64,000 nucleotides of DNA, taken from positions 124,001 through 188,000 of the forward strand of contig NZ_SDMK01000001.1 of assembly GCF_004123295.1 (NCBI RefSeq), read 5' to 3'. The number at the start of each line of letters is the position of its first letter. The first letter of the stretch is position 1. Shown piece by piece: positions 24,675-32,747 of this stretch. The translations under genes and the position numbers were made by a program. The stretch comes from Silvibacterium dinghuense (GTDB lineage: Bacteria > Acidobacteriota > Terriglobia > Terriglobales > Acidobacteriaceae). The notes under the pieces are model-generated. The model had not been told where the DNA came from. It saw only the letters and a list, made by a program, of their open reading frames with translations, and searched no databases.

Positions 24675-25631
24675 TCATTTCGCGCGGGGATGGGTCTGAT
24701 CGTAGACCTCAGCGACCTTGCCGATGGTGAGCTGGGTATAGCGCTGGGTGGTGGAAAGCCGCTCGTGGCCGAGCAGCTCCTGGATTGCCCGCAGATCGGC
24801 GCCCTCCTCCAGCATGTGCGCACCAAAGGCGTGGCGCAGGGTGTGAGGATGCACATCGGAAGGCAATCCATACGTCATGGCGATGCGCTTGACGATGCGG
24901 GCAACGGAACGGGTCGTCAGTCGCCCATTGCCACGTAGATGGGTATTGAGCAGCAGGGCGTCCTTGTCGAGACGGGCTGCGGCTTTTGCATTCTCGCGAA
25001 AGCGGACGGCCAGCTTTTCCTCGCGCTGCGCCAGATAGGTGCGAAGAGCCGCTGCCGCTGCATCTCCCATGGGCACATACCGCTCTTTGCGCCCCTTGCC
25101 GCGGATGAGAATGGCATCGTTGGCCCAGTGCAGGTCGCCGAGATCGAGACCGACCAGCTCGGCATTGCGGATACCACACCCGTATAACAGCTCGAAGATG
25201 ACGCGGTCACGCTCCAGCCAGGCAACGGTTTCCGCGTCACCGATCGCATCGACCGTCCGGTTCATCTCTTCAATCGTCGGAACGCGGGGCAGATGCTTGG
25301 GCAGGCGCGGGGAGGCAACAAGAGCCGCCGGATTCTGCTCGACGTAGCCATTGCGGGCCAGCCATTTGAACCAGGAGCGAATGGCCGCAAGCGCGCGTGC
25401 AGCCGAGGGACGCGAGAGCCCTCGGCCATAAAGCTCGCTGAGATAGGAACGAATAGTCTGATGCTCGATAGCCGCAGGTGCCGTTCCCTTGCCGATATTT
25501 TTTTCGATAAAGGCAGCGAACTCATGCAGTTCGCGCGTATAGGCACGCTGCGTATGCAGTGAAGCATTGCGCTCCCCGGCCAGCGAGGCGAGGAACTGCT
25601 CCACGAGCTTCGTGCTTGATTCGGAGTTCAC
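24675..25631 (-). CDS. xerC: Tyrosine recombinase XerC
   Basis: 318 residues with the N-terminal SAM-like arm-binding domain ([34 protein letters not shown]) and the catalytic domain. Active-site residues: Arg in [14 protein letters not shown], Lys in [13 protein letters not shown], His-x-x-Arg in [12 protein letters not shown], His in [11 protein letters not shown] and Tyr in QRYTQLT. It resolves chromosome dimers at dif together with XerD. The GTG start overlaps the stop of the upstream recombinase by four bases. No dif site was recognised here. Confidence 0.9.
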
Positions 25632-26578
25632 GACGCCGTCTCCTCTGTTTGCCCTTTCGTACGTGTGGCGCGCCCGCGGGGATGGTGCGAGCGATGCACT
25701 TCTTTCAAACGGCCAAGAGCCAGGTGGGTATACACCTGCGTCGTCGCAATATCGGCATGACCGAGAATGGTCTGCACCGTGCGCAGATCAGCCCCACCTT
25801 CAACCATATGCGTCGCGCAGCTGTGACGCAGCTTGTGCGGGCTGGCCGTTGCGTTTGAGGACCGGACGAGCTGCCAGATCCATTGGCGGGTGAGCGGCAG
25901 GCCGCGTACCGAGAGAAAGAGCCGCCCACGGTCTCGACGAGAGCGGGCAAGCGCCGGGCGGCCGTGCTGAAGATAGGTCTCTATGGCCTCGATGGCGATG
26001 CGGCCGAGCGGCACAATCCTCTCCTTATCGCCTTTGCCTCGTACCAGGGCCCGGCCGGCGGCGAGGGAGAGATCGGCGACATTCAGATCGGTCAGCTCGG
26101 AGACACGGAGCCCCCCCGCATAGAGGATTTCCAGAATGGCCCGGTCACGCAGCGAGACGGCGTCGGCATGCTCCGCATTGAGATTGGCGCGGTCAAGCAT
26201 GTCCTTCACTTCGGAGACGGCCAGCGACTTGGGCAGCACCTTCCAGGCTGCGGGCGACTCCATGGTGACGGTGGGATCTCGGTCGATCTTCTTCTCGAGC
26301 AGGAGCCATTTAAAAAATCCGCGCAGGCAGGAAAGCTTGCGCGCGGCCGAGCGGGATTCCACGCCGTGGCTGCTCAAGTGCGCAAGGAAACCGGAGACCT
26401 GCTCACGGCGGCATGCGATAAGCGCGGTCTGCTCTTTTTCAAGATATTCGGCGAACTGCAGGAGATCGCGCTCGTAGGCCTCGCAACTGAGCGGGCGCAG
26501 CCCCTTTTCGATGCGCAAATAGGCAAGATAGCCGCGCAACAACGAGAGATTCGTCTTCGACTCCGCAGACTCGGGCAC
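25628..26578 (-). CDS. xerD: Tyrosine recombinase XerD
   Basis: 316 residues, the same architecture as the downstream XerC but clearly divergent: [37 protein letters not shown], Arg in [14 protein letters not shown], Lys in [47 protein letters not shown]. Extra Arg residues end the protein. The start is GTG 26578. Which of the pair is XerC and which XerD is inferred from general similarity; the reverse is possible. Co-translation points to a heterotetrameric XerCD built from one operon. Confidence 0.85.
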
Positions 26579-29022: not shown

Positions 29023-30261
29023 CTACGAGCCGCCGTGGATCATCAGCATCACGGACAGGATGCTGACGATAATGGCAGTCACCCAGGCGACGATGTTGAA
29101 CCAGCGGCTGTTTACGTGCTCACCCATCAGGTCCTTGCGATTGATAAGCAGCAACATGAGCACGATAACAATGGGCAACAAAACGCCGTTGAGGACCTGA
29201 GACTCCACCGCCCACTTGATCAGAGGGAAGTTCGGGATCAGCACCACCGCAGCTCCGCCGGCAATGAGGATGGTGTACAGCCAGTAGAAGAAGGGCGCCT
29301 CTTTGAACTTGCGGTCGATACCGGATTCAAGGCCCAGGCCTTCGCAGACCACATAGGCCGTCGAGAGCGGAAGCACTGAAGCGGCAAAGAACGAGGCGTT
29401 GAAAAGGCCGACCGCAAAGAGGAGAAACGCATACGCTCCGGCGAGCGGCTTCATCGCTGTCGCCGCGTCCGCGGCACTCTGAATAGAGCCGAGTCCGTGC
29501 ACGTAAAGCGTTGCCGCGCACGCCACAATGATGAACCACGCAACGATATCCGTGAAGATGGACCCGACGATCACGTCGAGCCGCGATGCGGCATAGTTCT
29601 TGGCGGTAATTCCCTTCTCGACAATCGAGGACTGCAGGTAGAACTGCATCCACGGGGCGATGGTGGTGCCGATGACGGCAATCACCATGAAGAGATAGGC
29701 GTGATTTCCCCACACGGCATGAGGCGGAAGCTTGATCGTGTCCAGCAACGCCGTATGCCAGCTGGGGCCTGAGAGCACCCCGGCGATGATGTACGCGATG
29801 TAGAAGACGGACGCAGCGAGAAAGACCTTCTCGACCTTCTTGTAGTCGCCGCGCACGGCCAGAAGCCATACCAGCAGGCTGCAGATGGGTACGGAGATGT
29901 ATTTGCTGAGCCCGAAGAGCTCGAGGCTGCTGGCGATGCCGGCAAACTCGCCAATTACGTTGCCGAAGTTCACCAGCACCAGCAGCGCCATGATGATGAC
30001 CGTAACGCGCAGGCCAAACTCTTCGCGGATGAGATCGCTGAGCCCCTTGCCCGTCACCGCTCCCATGCGCGCGCACATTTCCTGCACCACGTAGAGCGAA
30101 AGCGTGATGGGGATCATCGTCCACAGCAGCTCATAGCCGTACTGCGCGCCGGACTGAGAATACGTGAATATGCCGTTCGGATCGTTGTCCACGTTGGCCG
30201 TGATGAATCCCGGACCGAGGACGGCGAGAAAAAGCAGTATCCGGGTTCTCCAGCGTTTCAC
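29023..30261 (-). CDS. NRAMP-related divalent cation transporter (NRMT-like, probably Mg2+)
   Basis: 412 residues with about 11 membrane helices of the SLC11 (NRAMP/MntH) fold. The unwound first helix reads ITANVDNDPNGIFTYSQ, where classical MntH has DPGN. The sixth helix reads GTTIAPWMQFYLQSS, where MntH has a Met-Pro-His motif. The metal-selecting methionine is therefore Ala. From memory, such changes mark the NRAMP-related magnesium transporters. It starts at GTG 30261 with GGAG about 7 nt ahead, 95 bp after the MgtE-like gene on the same strand. Confidence 0.85.
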   Translation of the reverse strand: MKRWRTRILLFLAVLGPGFITANVDNDPNGIFTYSQSGAQYGYELLWTMIPITLSLYVVQEMCARMGAVTGKGLSDLIREEFGLRVTVIIMALLVLVNFGNVIGEFAGIASSLELFGLSKYISVPICSLLVWLLAVRGDYKKVEKVFLAASVFYIAYIIAGVLSGPSWHTALLDTIKLPPHAVWGNHAYLFMVIAVIGTTIAPWMQFYLQSSIVEKGITAKNYAASRLDVIVGSIFTDIVAWFIIVACAATLYVHGLGSIQSAADAATAMKPLAGAYAFLLFAVGLFNASFFAASVLPLSTAYVVCEGLGLESGIDRKFKEAPFFYWLYTILIAGGAAVVLIPNFPLIKWAVESQVLNGVLLPIVIVLMLLLINRKDLMGEHVNSRWFNIVAWVTAIIVSILSVMLMIHGGS

Positions 30262-30356
30262 GGCAGGCTCCTGAAGCAGTCAGCAGTTAAGGGGTCACGC
30301 CTTCGCAGGAAGGCTCTCAGCCGAACATACCAGACACGGACAGCGATTGCTGCTGT

Positions 30357-31643
30357 CTACCGGTCGGCGCGGAGAAAGGCAATCACGTGATCGGCTTCAA
30401 TCACCCCTGCGAGACGCCCCTTCGAATCGATCACGGGCAGAGCGCGGAGATTGTATCGATCGAAGAGCTCGGCCACCTCGTTCTCGTGCGCATCTGCAGG
30501 GCAGGTATGGAAATGAATCTCGGTAAGGACATCGAGCCGCGTATCGGGCTGGGCCAGGACCATCCGCGCCAGCGACACAACCCCCTTCAGCACCTCATCA
30601 GCATCGACGAGATAGACCTCGGTGATGGTCTCGACATCGCCTTCAAACTCCCGCAGAGCCTGGATGGCCTCTCCCACCGAGGCGGTAACAGGCACAGCGA
30701 CATATTCGGTGGTCATACGGCCGGCAGCAGAATCCTCGCGGAATTCGAGGAGCTCTTCGACCTCCTGCCGCTCCTCGGGGTGCATCTCCTCGAGGATCGC
30801 TTCAGAGCGTTCTTCCGGCAGCTCGGCCAGCAGATCGGCAGCGGCGGACGGGTCCATCTCTTCGACGATGGCAGCCGCAGTCTCCGAATCGAGAGATTCG
30901 ACCATCGAAACCTGCAGCTTGGGCTCGACCTCCTCGAGCGCCTCGGCGGCAACCTCCTCGTCGAGCGTCATGAGGATGGCCTCGCGCTCAGCCGGGGCAA
31001 GCTCTTCGAGGATGTCGGCGATGTCCGAAGGATGCAGCTGGGCCAGGCGCTCGTGCTCGATCTTGAGCTTGACGCGGCGGGCGGGATCGACCTCGATCAT
31101 GTCGACGAAGTCCCAGGGGATGACACGCGGAGAAAAGCGGCTGGCGATCGAATCGATCCCCGGCCGGGGCAAAAGGCCCTGCAGGAGGCGCCGCACCGCG
31201 CCGCGCATGCCAACCTCGACTTCGCGCACACGCAGATCCCAGGTAGCGGTCAGATTCCCGGCAGAAGGCGCCTGGGTTGCGGGGTCGAACCACTGCAGGT
31301 CCACGTCATTCACGCGGACCACCTTGCGCCCATGGACATCGATGATCTGGCGGTCGAGCAGATCACCGCGCAGCAGGATGTAATTCTCAAAATCGGCAAG
31401 CGGGCGGGGTGAAGCCTCCGGACGCAGCTCAAGGGCTCCACTGGGTGTCTGCCGGACATCGGTGGCGGGAACCAGGGCTCGGCCTCCACGCGCCTTGAGG
31501 ACCAGGCCCATGACGCGGCCGGCCTCATCGCCTGTTCCCACGGCCAGATCCGCCACGCGGCCGCGGAGCTGCCCCTGCGCATCGGTCACCGGGGTGCCGA
31601 TCAGCGAAGTCAGCGTGATCATGGGCTGGCGTTCCTGCATCAT
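30357..31643 (-). CDS. Soluble MgtE-like protein: PRC-barrel, MgtE_N and two CBS domains, no membrane domain
   Basis: A cytoplasmic protein of about 428 residues. An N-terminal PRC-barrel (ITLTSLIGTPVTDAQGQLRG) is followed by a second barrel-like segment (LLDRQIIDVHGRKVVRVNDV). Then comes an acidic superhelical MgtE_N domain (LHPSDIADILEELAPAERE, repeated ALEEVEP/IVEEMDP/LLAELPE turns) and two CBS domains (TTEYVAVPVTASVGEAIQAL, and YNLRALPVIDSKGRLAGVIE). This is the Mg2+-sensing gate module of the MgtE channel without its pore. The start is taken as ATG 31643 (GGAG 11 nt ahead); the frame is open to 31835. It lies upstream of the NRAMP-like gene, presumably as its regulator. Confidence 0.85.
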   Translation of the reverse strand: MMQERQPMITLTSLIGTPVTDAQGQLRGRVADLAVGTGDEAGRVMGLVLKARGGRALVPATDVRQTPSGALELRPEASPRPLADFENYILLRGDLLDRQIIDVHGRKVVRVNDVDLQWFDPATQAPSAGNLTATWDLRVREVEVGMRGAVRRLLQGLLPRPGIDSIASRFSPRVIPWDFVDMIEVDPARRVKLKIEHERLAQLHPSDIADILEELAPAEREAILMTLDEEVAAEALEEVEPKLQVSMVESLDSETAAAIVEEMDPSAAADLLAELPEERSEAILEEMHPEERQEVEELLEFREDSAAGRMTTEYVAVPVTASVGEAIQALREFEGDVETITEVYLVDADEVLKGVVSLARMVLAQPDTRLDVLTEIHFHTCPADAHENEVAELFDRYNLRALPVIDSKGRLAGVIEADHVIAFLRADR

Positions 31644-31942
31644 TTTTGCGTGGTCTCCGTTGAAGTCTATACCGATTTGACGCGCCTGCATGCAGGGAAG
31701 CATGGCAGCTTCCACGGCAAAGACCGGGGCATACAAAATTTCAGGAATCTGCCGGAGAGCTGGCCACCCAAACACGGAGAACGACTTCTTACCCACAGCG
31801 GATGGAGAGTCCGTTTTCGGGGAGCGTAAGGCCAACGATCAGCTTTGCTTGACATTACCCGCTTCAGCAAGCAAACTGCCACGTACAGGCTGGTTGGCGA
31901 AGCCACCCACAGCACGTCATGCCGCACTGCGAGGAAGAGCAT

Positions 31943-32383
31943 TTGACGGGACAACAGGCAGGCCGTATCACCTACACACTTGAGTCCTCGCTGGACAGCG
32001 TCAACAAGGTCGAGGAGACCGCCGAACAGCTGGCCAAGAAGGCCGGCATCGACGAAGACGAGATCTTCAAGATCACCATGGCGGTGCGTGAAGCGGCCGT
32101 CAACGCTGTACTCCATGGCAACTCCTACGATCCGGACAAGCGGATCACGGCTTCTTTTGAAAATAACGGGAAATCACTGGTCATCCGCATCACGGACCAG
32201 GGCAAGGGGCTGGACCCCGAGACGCTTCCCGATCCTCTCGCACCGGAAAACCTTCTGCGCGGTTCCGGGCGCGGTATCTTCCTCATTCGCTCTTTCATGG
32301 ATGAGGTACACTTCAAGCAATTACACCCGGGCACTGAGTTGACGCTCATCAAGCATCTGGGGACGACTCAATCAGGCAGCTAA
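31943..32383 (+). CDS. RsbW-like anti-sigma-factor serine kinase (GHKL ATPase)
   Basis: A 146-residue HATPase of the RsbW/SpoIIAB type. The N-box is [18 protein letters not shown]1 is [14 protein letters not shown], and the G2 lid is [16 protein letters not shown]. Such kinases bind a sigma factor or phosphorylate a STAS antagonist, and the antagonist is encoded 13 bp downstream. No sigma factor or PP2C phosphatase is adjacent. TTG 31943 follows GAGGAAGAG at good spacing; ATG 31919 is an alternative. A TTGACA at 31849 could belong to its promoter, but the -10 is weak. Confidence 0.85.
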
Positions 32384-32396
32384 GGAGGGACTTTTC

Positions 32397-32747
32397 GTGA
32401 GCATGAAGGTAAGCACCCGTCAGGTAGACGGTGTAACAATTCTCGATCTCAGCGGACGCATCACCCTCGGAGAAGGCAGTGTGCAGTTGCGCGACGCTGT
32501 TCGGGATCTTCTGGCCAAGGGTTCGAAGTATATTCTGCTGAACCTCGGGGATGTGAACTACATCGACAGCTCGGGGATCGGTGAGCTGGTGAGCGCCTAC
32601 ACGACGGTTCGCAACCAGGGCGGCGAACTGAAGCTGCTCAACCTCACCAAGAAGGTCCACGACCTGCTTCAGATCACCAAGCTCTACACCGTGTTCGACG
32701 TAAAGGACGACGAGGCTTCGGCCATCGCTTCCTATTCGCGCTCGTAA
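32397..32747 (+). CDS. STAS-domain anti-sigma-factor antagonist (RsbV/SpoIIAA-like)
   Basis: 116 residues forming one STAS domain: [19 protein letters not shown] at the start, then [20 protein letters not shown] with the phosphorylatable serine S58 or S59, and [17 protein letters not shown]. It counteracts a cognate kinase, here surely the preceding gene. The start GTG 32397 has AAGGAGGGA at ideal spacing; ATG 32403 is also possible. A strong terminator closes the two-gene unit. Confidence 0.92.

Follow-up and report, generated by a model that had tools for sequence, protein, structure and literature searches.

A 64,000-nucleotide stretch of the Silvibacterium dinghuense genome (contig NZ_SDMK01000001.1, positions 124,001 to 188,000; hereafter the window) encodes an NRMT-type transporter, that is, a Mg2+-type member of the NRAMP family, and directly upstream on the same strand a soluble partner that resembles the cytoplasmic part of the magnesium channel MgtE. 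The explanation we favour, with a probability of about 0.6, is that the partner serves an NRMT importer of Mg2+ and Mn2+ as its dedicated cytoplasmic regulator, attached by its PRC barrels and slowing uptake when the cell has ample metal. As part of that whole explanation, and with the same confidence, the pair would take the MgtE channel's place in these bacteria. The preliminary description of this locus took the pairing for an undescribed combination; it had in fact been reported in 2014, with regulation in trans proposed and tested (PMC4072509; this and all other articles are cited for their accessible parts). Added here are the phylum-wide co-occurrence of the two genes, the exchange with MgtE, the PRC, plug and ligand features of the partner, and an association with DUF1003.

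The transporter and its partner

Both open reading frames (ORFs) lie where the preliminary description placed them, and the transporter, an NRAMP family member (Pfam, 317.9 bits), carries the reported motifs DNDPNG and TTIAPW. Its metal site reads D27-P-N-G30 and T199-T-I-A202 and so matches the NRMT signature, DxxG in helix 1 and TxxA/T in helix 6 (PMC8806188). The canonical motifs DPGN and MPH are not present; DPNG and IAPW stand in their place. The best solved relative is EleNRMT (Protein Data Bank, PDB, 7qia; E 5.3e-113), with canonical MntH structures trailing (DraNramp, 8e6i, at E 2.4e-25; others weaker). The protein misses the NCBIfam cut-offs for MntH (NF001923, 146.1 against 430; TIGR01197, 64.8 against 272.5) and passes the general Nramp model NF037982 (57.6 against 50). 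In an 84-row maximum-likelihood tree, several long branches of which were flagged by the program, it shares one 47-row clade with EleNRMT (support 99/94), and DraNramp and the window genome's own MntH fall outside. The proposed placement with Mg2+-type NRAMP proteins, apart from MntH, is thereby upheld. We rejected a second MntH on the model scores, the structure match and the tree position together; what the window transporter shares with MntH and canonical NRAMP proteins is the SLC11 family (Pfam Nramp).

EleNRMT has the same clade and the same DxxG-TxxA/T site but differs in helix 1, where it reads DAGG (PMC8806188). DPNG also occurs in loci L103-L106 and in all seven same-genus transporter loci inspected (L213-L219), and DAGG or DSGG is the helix 1 motif in most other relatives. 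Three further kinds of transporter were seen. A separate NRAMP-related clade has the motifs DDDPSG and TT/TSISPY (L079-L086, L088, L089 and L192), with a partner gene in the flanks of none of its 11 tree rows. Divergent NRAMP-related proteins with ENDGPS in helix 1 and GATVTPW in helix 6 occur in L087 (3295-4665) and L090 (3417-4811). Tandem NRMT-type genes stand at L162 (4767 and 6322), with no partner gene in the sequenced flank examined.

The partner matches Pfam PRC (PF05239, 31.5 versus 21.2 bits, first barrel), MgtE_N and CBS, and the MgtE channel domain PF01769 was not found in it by Pfam. Among solved structures the MgtE cytosolic domain is closest to it both in sequence (E 1.3e-29) and in fold (Foldseek 1.2e-18; Z 20.6, root-mean-square deviation, rmsd, 5.9, 237 residues aligned). 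The AlphaFold2 model has a mean predicted local distance difference test (pLDDT) score of 89.0 and a predicted template modelling (pTM) score of 0.53, so that the domains can be trusted and their mutual placement cannot. VIA-align of the whole model covered mostly residues 274-428, and the PRC part was therefore modelled alone (pLDDT 90.6, pTM 0.85). That model, over residues 3-181, matches the CdpB1/CdpB2 crystal structure 8qzo_F (Z 11.7, rmsd 2.6, 128 aligned). A Pfam PRC match recurs in 34 of 36 partner homologues, and the two PRC halves align with each other as profiles (probability 82.1, E 1e-5), against at most 28.9 in three control comparisons of the CBS and MgtE_N parts. On these models the N-terminal part is a predicted tandem of two PRC barrels. 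The architecture first described thus stands for MgtE_N, the CBS pair and the missing channel domain, and its single PRC barrel becomes two. Weaker fold matches include the PRC domains of photosynthetic reaction-centre H subunits (Z ~3.4-4.3), a likeness only suggestive of a membrane-docking role for the barrels.

Compared with Thermus thermophilus MgtE (PDB 2yvx/2yvy), the partner has the same MgtE_N domain and CBS pair but lacks the channel domain and the plug helix and adds the two barrels. We rejected a broken MgtE, since several phyla have it as a free protein with a similar end point, a common end that arises partly by selection because the alignment set required a tail of <60 residues. 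A match in Acetoanaerobium was dismissed as a split partner, being an ordinary full-length MgtE. Natural partner-transporter fusions were likewise dismissed by inspection: in L100 and L027 the long ORFs run across the partner in a different reading frame.

Distribution within the phylum

The transporter, MgtE_N and the whole partner each served as query against 149 genomes from the window's phylum. Thirty-one genomes (NRMT-A) hold a transporter at least 47% identical to the window's; 11 further genomes (NRMT-B) hold one at 36-39% identity with the motif NDAGG. Ten of the 11 NRMT-B sequences form part of the tree, as a 19-row group beside the 47-row clade (66 rows jointly, 97/88), that of G136 being too short. 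The DDDPSG clade (11 rows, at most 37% identity) was left out of these counts; G009, G087 and G095 have DDDPSG-type transporters alone and no partner.

A PRC-type partner is present in 41 of the 42 NRMT-A/B genomes, and the searches saw none in the remaining 107 (Fisher p 5e-36, ancestry ignored). It was detected in 32 genomes by a match through the PRC part and in nine NRMT-B genomes as an ORF beside the transporter. The sole exception, G136, is a genome 67% complete with its transporter at a contig end. All nine genomes of the window's genus hold both genes. The transporter-partner pairing recurs far beyond chance, and a survey of MgtE_N-CBS proteins near NRMT, which the preliminary description had called for, thus finds it widespread.

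Among the 31 NRMT-A genomes the partner lies upstream within 1 kb in 15 and at 1-6.5 kb in eight, more than 100 kb away in one and on another contig in seven; in 10 of the 11 NRMT-B genomes it lies downstream within 1 kb. Linked genes always share a strand, and the opposite order in the two groups argues against mere inheritance of one locus. A separate scan of loci, whose named relatives are mostly Acidobacteriota among the matches listed, found the partner, whole or in part, upstream on the same strand in 53 of the best 80.

In genomes without NRMT-A/B, MgtE_N comes mostly as part of MgtE: among the matches listed, a channel domain lies just downstream of 92 of 100 MgtE_N places (82 genomes), and none of the other eight has a PRC-part match. 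Two of these eight are at contig ends (G012, G006), two are in genomes ~75-81% complete (G090, G080), and two are weak matches in frames of ~345 residues (G082, G102), perhaps FliG at our guess. The MgtE_N frames G054:C3:122169-124240 and G067:C3:129006-131098 (383 and 292 residues) adjoin a full MgtE and have no channel or PRC match; they are possibly another free MgtE-type regulator.

Some loci carry additional genes. In L102 (2665-8284, G119:C17) a canonical MntH-like gene with DPGN and MPH follows just downstream of the pair on the same strand. A gene of ~350-370 codons separates partner from transporter in L044 (4726-5841), L113 (3901-4983), L131 (3946-4995) and L046 (5087-6154), and in L044 and L113, the two examined with Pfam, it matches Glyco_trans_1_2; L048 has more inserted genes. 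Acidobacterial-type loci also turned up in records titled Bifidobacterium breve and Rhodanobacteraceae (L153 and L117), which are probably mislabelled metagenome-assembled genomes.

Magnesium transporter complement

An MgtE channel domain (E up to 0.001) was found in five of the 42 NRMT-A/B genomes versus 81 of the other 107. CorA follows no such pattern (24 of 42 versus 66 of 107). Neither is found in 22 genomes, 16 of which have NRMT-A/B. The window genome, 99.93% complete, is of this kind: we found no CorA and no MgtE channel in it, and no MgtA above the cut-off, only weak P-type ATPase matches. The pair is therefore its best candidate for a Mg2+ importer. A separate canonical MntH lies at C1:1805545; all nine genus genomes have a match at the same weak level as this MntH, the motifs having been read in the window genome. 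In the family, nine of 15 genomes lack both CorA and MgtE; two of these (G130 and G139) have MgtA above the cut-off, and seven have none of the three. The simplest reading of these gene contents is that NRMT would carry Mg2+ uptake where CorA, MgtE and MgtA are missing.

MgtE metal- and ATP-site positions in the partner

Thermus MgtE was the reference for an alignment of 95 partners and 23 MgtE proteins, with the cytosolic Mg2+ sites as assigned from mutants (PMC5882242) and the ATP contacts from PMC5529423. The plug helix (E258/D259) is missing: 93 of the 95 partners end within 11 residues of Thermus residue 255, two extend 21 and 24 residues beyond it, and the window partner ends where the helix would start. 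The window partner has S, N, H and A in place of Thermus D91, D226, D247 and D250, and E and A in place of Y170 and R187. It also differs at D188, N203 and F227 and retains E59 and D95. By this alignment it has lost the Mg4/Mg5 ligands and the ATP-phosphate contacts, the side-chain contacts with ATP being replaced. D188, N203 and D226 vary among ordinary MgtE also, so differences there prove nothing, and F227 was discarded as a mark of ATP loss since 17 of the 23 MgtE proteins have Leu there too.

The informative positions separate the two protein sets to varying degrees. D250 is Asp in 22 of 23 MgtE proteins versus five of 95 partners, D91 in 23 of 23 versus 51 of 95, and D247 in 23 of 23 versus 62 of 95. 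Tyr is found at Y170 in 20 of 23 versus 24 of 95, and Arg or Lys at R187 in 22 of 23 versus 27 of 95. At E59 an acidic residue (Glu or Asp) stands in 19 of 23 versus 83 of 95. D95 is Asp in six of 23 MgtE proteins versus 92 of 95 partners, and this better retention in the partners speaks against a simple story of loss.

The changes are concentrated in one branch. In all 25 loci, the window included, whose transporter is at least 68.7% identical to the window's and whose partner was aligned, both D91 (to S, G or A) and D247 (to H, Q or N) are replaced. Below that identity, 44 of 61 loci retain both and six have lost both. Partners linked to an M-box (L177, L181, L183) retain D91, D247, Y170 and an Arg or Lys at 187. 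Judged from the aligned residues, the branch holding the window appears to have rebuilt the D91/D247 metal site. Mg2+ and ATP sensing therefore cannot be transferred from MgtE to this branch, and the preliminary description, which had done so, finds no support for the window partner: the plug helix is absent and the ligand and ATP-contact residues are changed. A single coupled change of the partner site and DPNG was not borne out, as the D91/D247 loss spans a wider branch than DPNG.

Pairs outside the phylum

Adjacent pairs occur on plasmids of Alicyclobacillus fastidiosus, Serratia, Mycolicibacterium, Leifsonia and Arthrobacter (Bacillota, Enterobacterales and Actinomycetota) and in Geobacteraceae (L177, L178, L181). 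Of 12 sources scanned, three carry an M-box ahead of the pair: A. fastidiosus and two Geobacteraceae. Three actinobacterial genera, Nonomuraea, Tsukamurella and Nocardia, instead have a DUF1003 gene directly downstream of a partner relative (Pfam; Table 1); in Nonomuraea an ORF that by eye resembles a Mrp-type ATPase follows. A search with the Nonomuraea protein gave 11 plasmid-collection records that match at least 80% of its length; eight of them lie beside an NRAMP gene, judged by coordinates, and three beside DUF1003.

Gene layout of the locus

The two genes (Table 1) are separated by 95 bases, in which no terminator-like site was found, and a Shine-Dalgarno-like CAGGAG precedes the transporter's GTG at 30261. 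The partner's frame is open further upstream, to a TTG at 31835 that would give 492 residues, but most of the 95 collected partner ORFs have ~390-465 residues, which favours the ATG at 31643. No Rfam family, the M-box included, reaches its gathering threshold anywhere in the window.

Table 1. Features of the transporter-partner locus and of the DUF1003 loci (positions in the window unless a locus is named)
Feature	Position	Strand	Evidence
NRMT-type SLC11/NRAMP transporter gene, 412 residues, GTG start	29023..30261	-	ORF; Pfam Nramp 317.9 bits; EleNRMT E 5.3e-113; tree
Helix 6 metal-site motif TTIAPW, transporter residues 199-204 (TxxA; Ala replaces MntH Met)	29650..29667	-	sequence and EleNRMT alignment
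Helix 1 metal-site motif DNDPNG, transporter residues 25-30 (DxxG)	30172..30189	-	read from sequence
Soluble partner gene, 428 residues, PRC - PRC - MgtE_N - CBS pair	30357..31643	-	ORF, Pfam, AlphaFold2 model
CBS pair, partner residues about 305-428	30360..30731	-	alignment, Pfam, fold comparison
MgtE intracellular N domain, partner residues 203-304	30732..31037	-	Pfam 92.3 bits
Predicted tandem PRC-barrel region, partner residues 5-188	31080..31631	-	Pfam PRC in homologues; model; CdpB fold match
PRC-MgtE_N-CBS gene and DUF1003 gene	L188 3995-5675 (Nonomuraea); L232 3486-5299 (Tsukamurella); L234 2001-3859 (Nocardia)		Pfam

A row of genes with HATPase_c_2 and STAS domains at 31919-32747 (plus strand; Pfam) points away from the partner gene and resembles anti-sigma and anti-anti-sigma pairs. 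On the transporter's other side, two adjoining tyrosine-recombinase genes occupy 24675-26578 (minus strand), both with Pfam Phage_integrase and XerC/XerD-like by eye.

Discussion

The pairing is already described, and the window pair belongs to the known NrmT kind. Shin et al. reported in 2014 that most NrmT genes have a gene for the cytoplasmic portion of MgtE nearby, proposed cytoplasmic feedback or chaperone activity for its product, suggested Mn2+ sensing, and concluded that its role was unknown (PMC4072509). The window repeats their arrangement, an NRMT-clade transporter directly downstream of such a gene on the same strand. The M-box belongs to a subset of these operons and is not required; the window has none, as reported for Acidobacterium capsulatum. 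The A. capsulatum pair ACP_2976/ACP_2977, whose proteins we compare by description only, is probably close, because records of Acidobacterium sp. are the closest named relatives of the window. The accessible part of the 2014 article does not describe PRC barrels, ligand losses or a replacement of MgtE, and the partner goes unmentioned in the accessible parts of PMC8806188 (on EleNRMT), PMC12873925, PMC13060092, PMC5122736 and PMC13209247. A literature search whose coverage excludes most subscription papers found no later paper on the partner's role, none on MgtE with a PRC barrel and none joining DUF1003 to magnesium.

How might such a system work? The NRMT protein would be the membrane transporter of a two-gene uptake system for Mg2+ and also Mn2+, both of which NRMT proteins transport (PMC4072509, PMC8806188), and the soluble protein its dedicated cytoplasmic regulatory subunit. 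The two PRC barrels would dock on the transporter's cytoplasmic face, and the MgtE_N-CBS unit would respond to cytosolic divalent metal by a change of shape and, in the metal-replete cell, lower uptake. Gating in trans, as first suggested for this locus, is plausible. We infer that the two proteins bind each other, that the barrels do the docking, which ligand is sensed and in which direction uptake is regulated.

A number of observations weigh against this explanation. The co-occurrence test leaves kinship uncorrected, and the boundary between NRMT-B and the next clade, set by motif and tree, was drawn with the neighbours already in view. In eight of the 31 NRMT-A genomes the partner is not linked to the transporter; it is absent from the examined flanks in 27 of the best 80 loci among the matches listed, with the close relatives L103 and L105 among them, and was not found beside the transporter in two of five plasmid matches inspected, those of Alicyclobacillus curvatus and Rhizobium. 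Most MgtE ligand residues are changed in the window partner. In published assays the C. acetobutylicum NrmT transports Mg2+ without a partner, the A. capsulatum transporter rescued Mn2+ better than Mg2+, and co-expression of the ACP partner gave no further Mg2+ rescue (PMC4072509). This last result is compatible with a brake, which would give no growth benefit when Mg2+ is low.

These points feed two other explanations. The pair may have shifted to manganese in the window's lineage, so that the transporter imports mainly Mn2+ and the partner senses Mn2+. In B. subtilis the A. capsulatum pair gave full Mn2+ rescue and Mg2+ rescue only at low millimolar concentrations, and Mn2+ sensing is the suggestion of Shin et al. 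(PMC4072509). The Mg4 pair D91 and D247 is replaced in all 25 aligned loci at or above 68.7% transporter identity, DPNG marks the window's genus where relatives in the branch have DAGG or DSGG, and the window has no M-box. We nevertheless think this shift unlikely: the window genome has a separate canonical MntH, with matches of that level in all nine genus genomes; a role in manganese only would leave it without a known Mg2+ importer; and what is rescued in B. subtilis says little about the substrate in the native cell. Less probable still, the partner would act on expression or assembly, in response to metal or nucleotide, or serve as a metal chaperone, and would not gate. Transport proceeds without the partner in the published assays, Shin et al. 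named chaperone activity as an alternative (PMC4072509), and PRC barrels are found in proteins of other roles, such as RimM and CdpB; direct control is the better fit to the partner's almost unbroken co-occurrence with the transporter and to the derivation of its core from MgtE.

The associations outside the phylum allow a broader proposal, which we regard as doubtful. The PRC-PRC-MgtE_N-CBS protein might be a portable regulatory subunit acting in trans on unrelated membrane proteins, on NRMT in most of the lineages seen and on DUF1003 proteins in some actinobacteria. Lacking a plug helix, it would act by docking and not by plugging, in a system in which first the sensor and then, in the window's genus, the pore shifted its metal preference. 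This would place the rebuilding of the partner's metal site first, in the wider branch, and DPNG later, in the window's genus.

The co-occurrence, the exchange with MgtE and the residues that differ between M-box-linked and window-branch partners make the role left open in 2014 directly testable. The genome evidence also bears on whether an NRMT protein can serve as a cell's main Mg2+ importer. Beyond the transporter itself, DUF1003, a family of unknown function, is now linked to metal-sensing domains.

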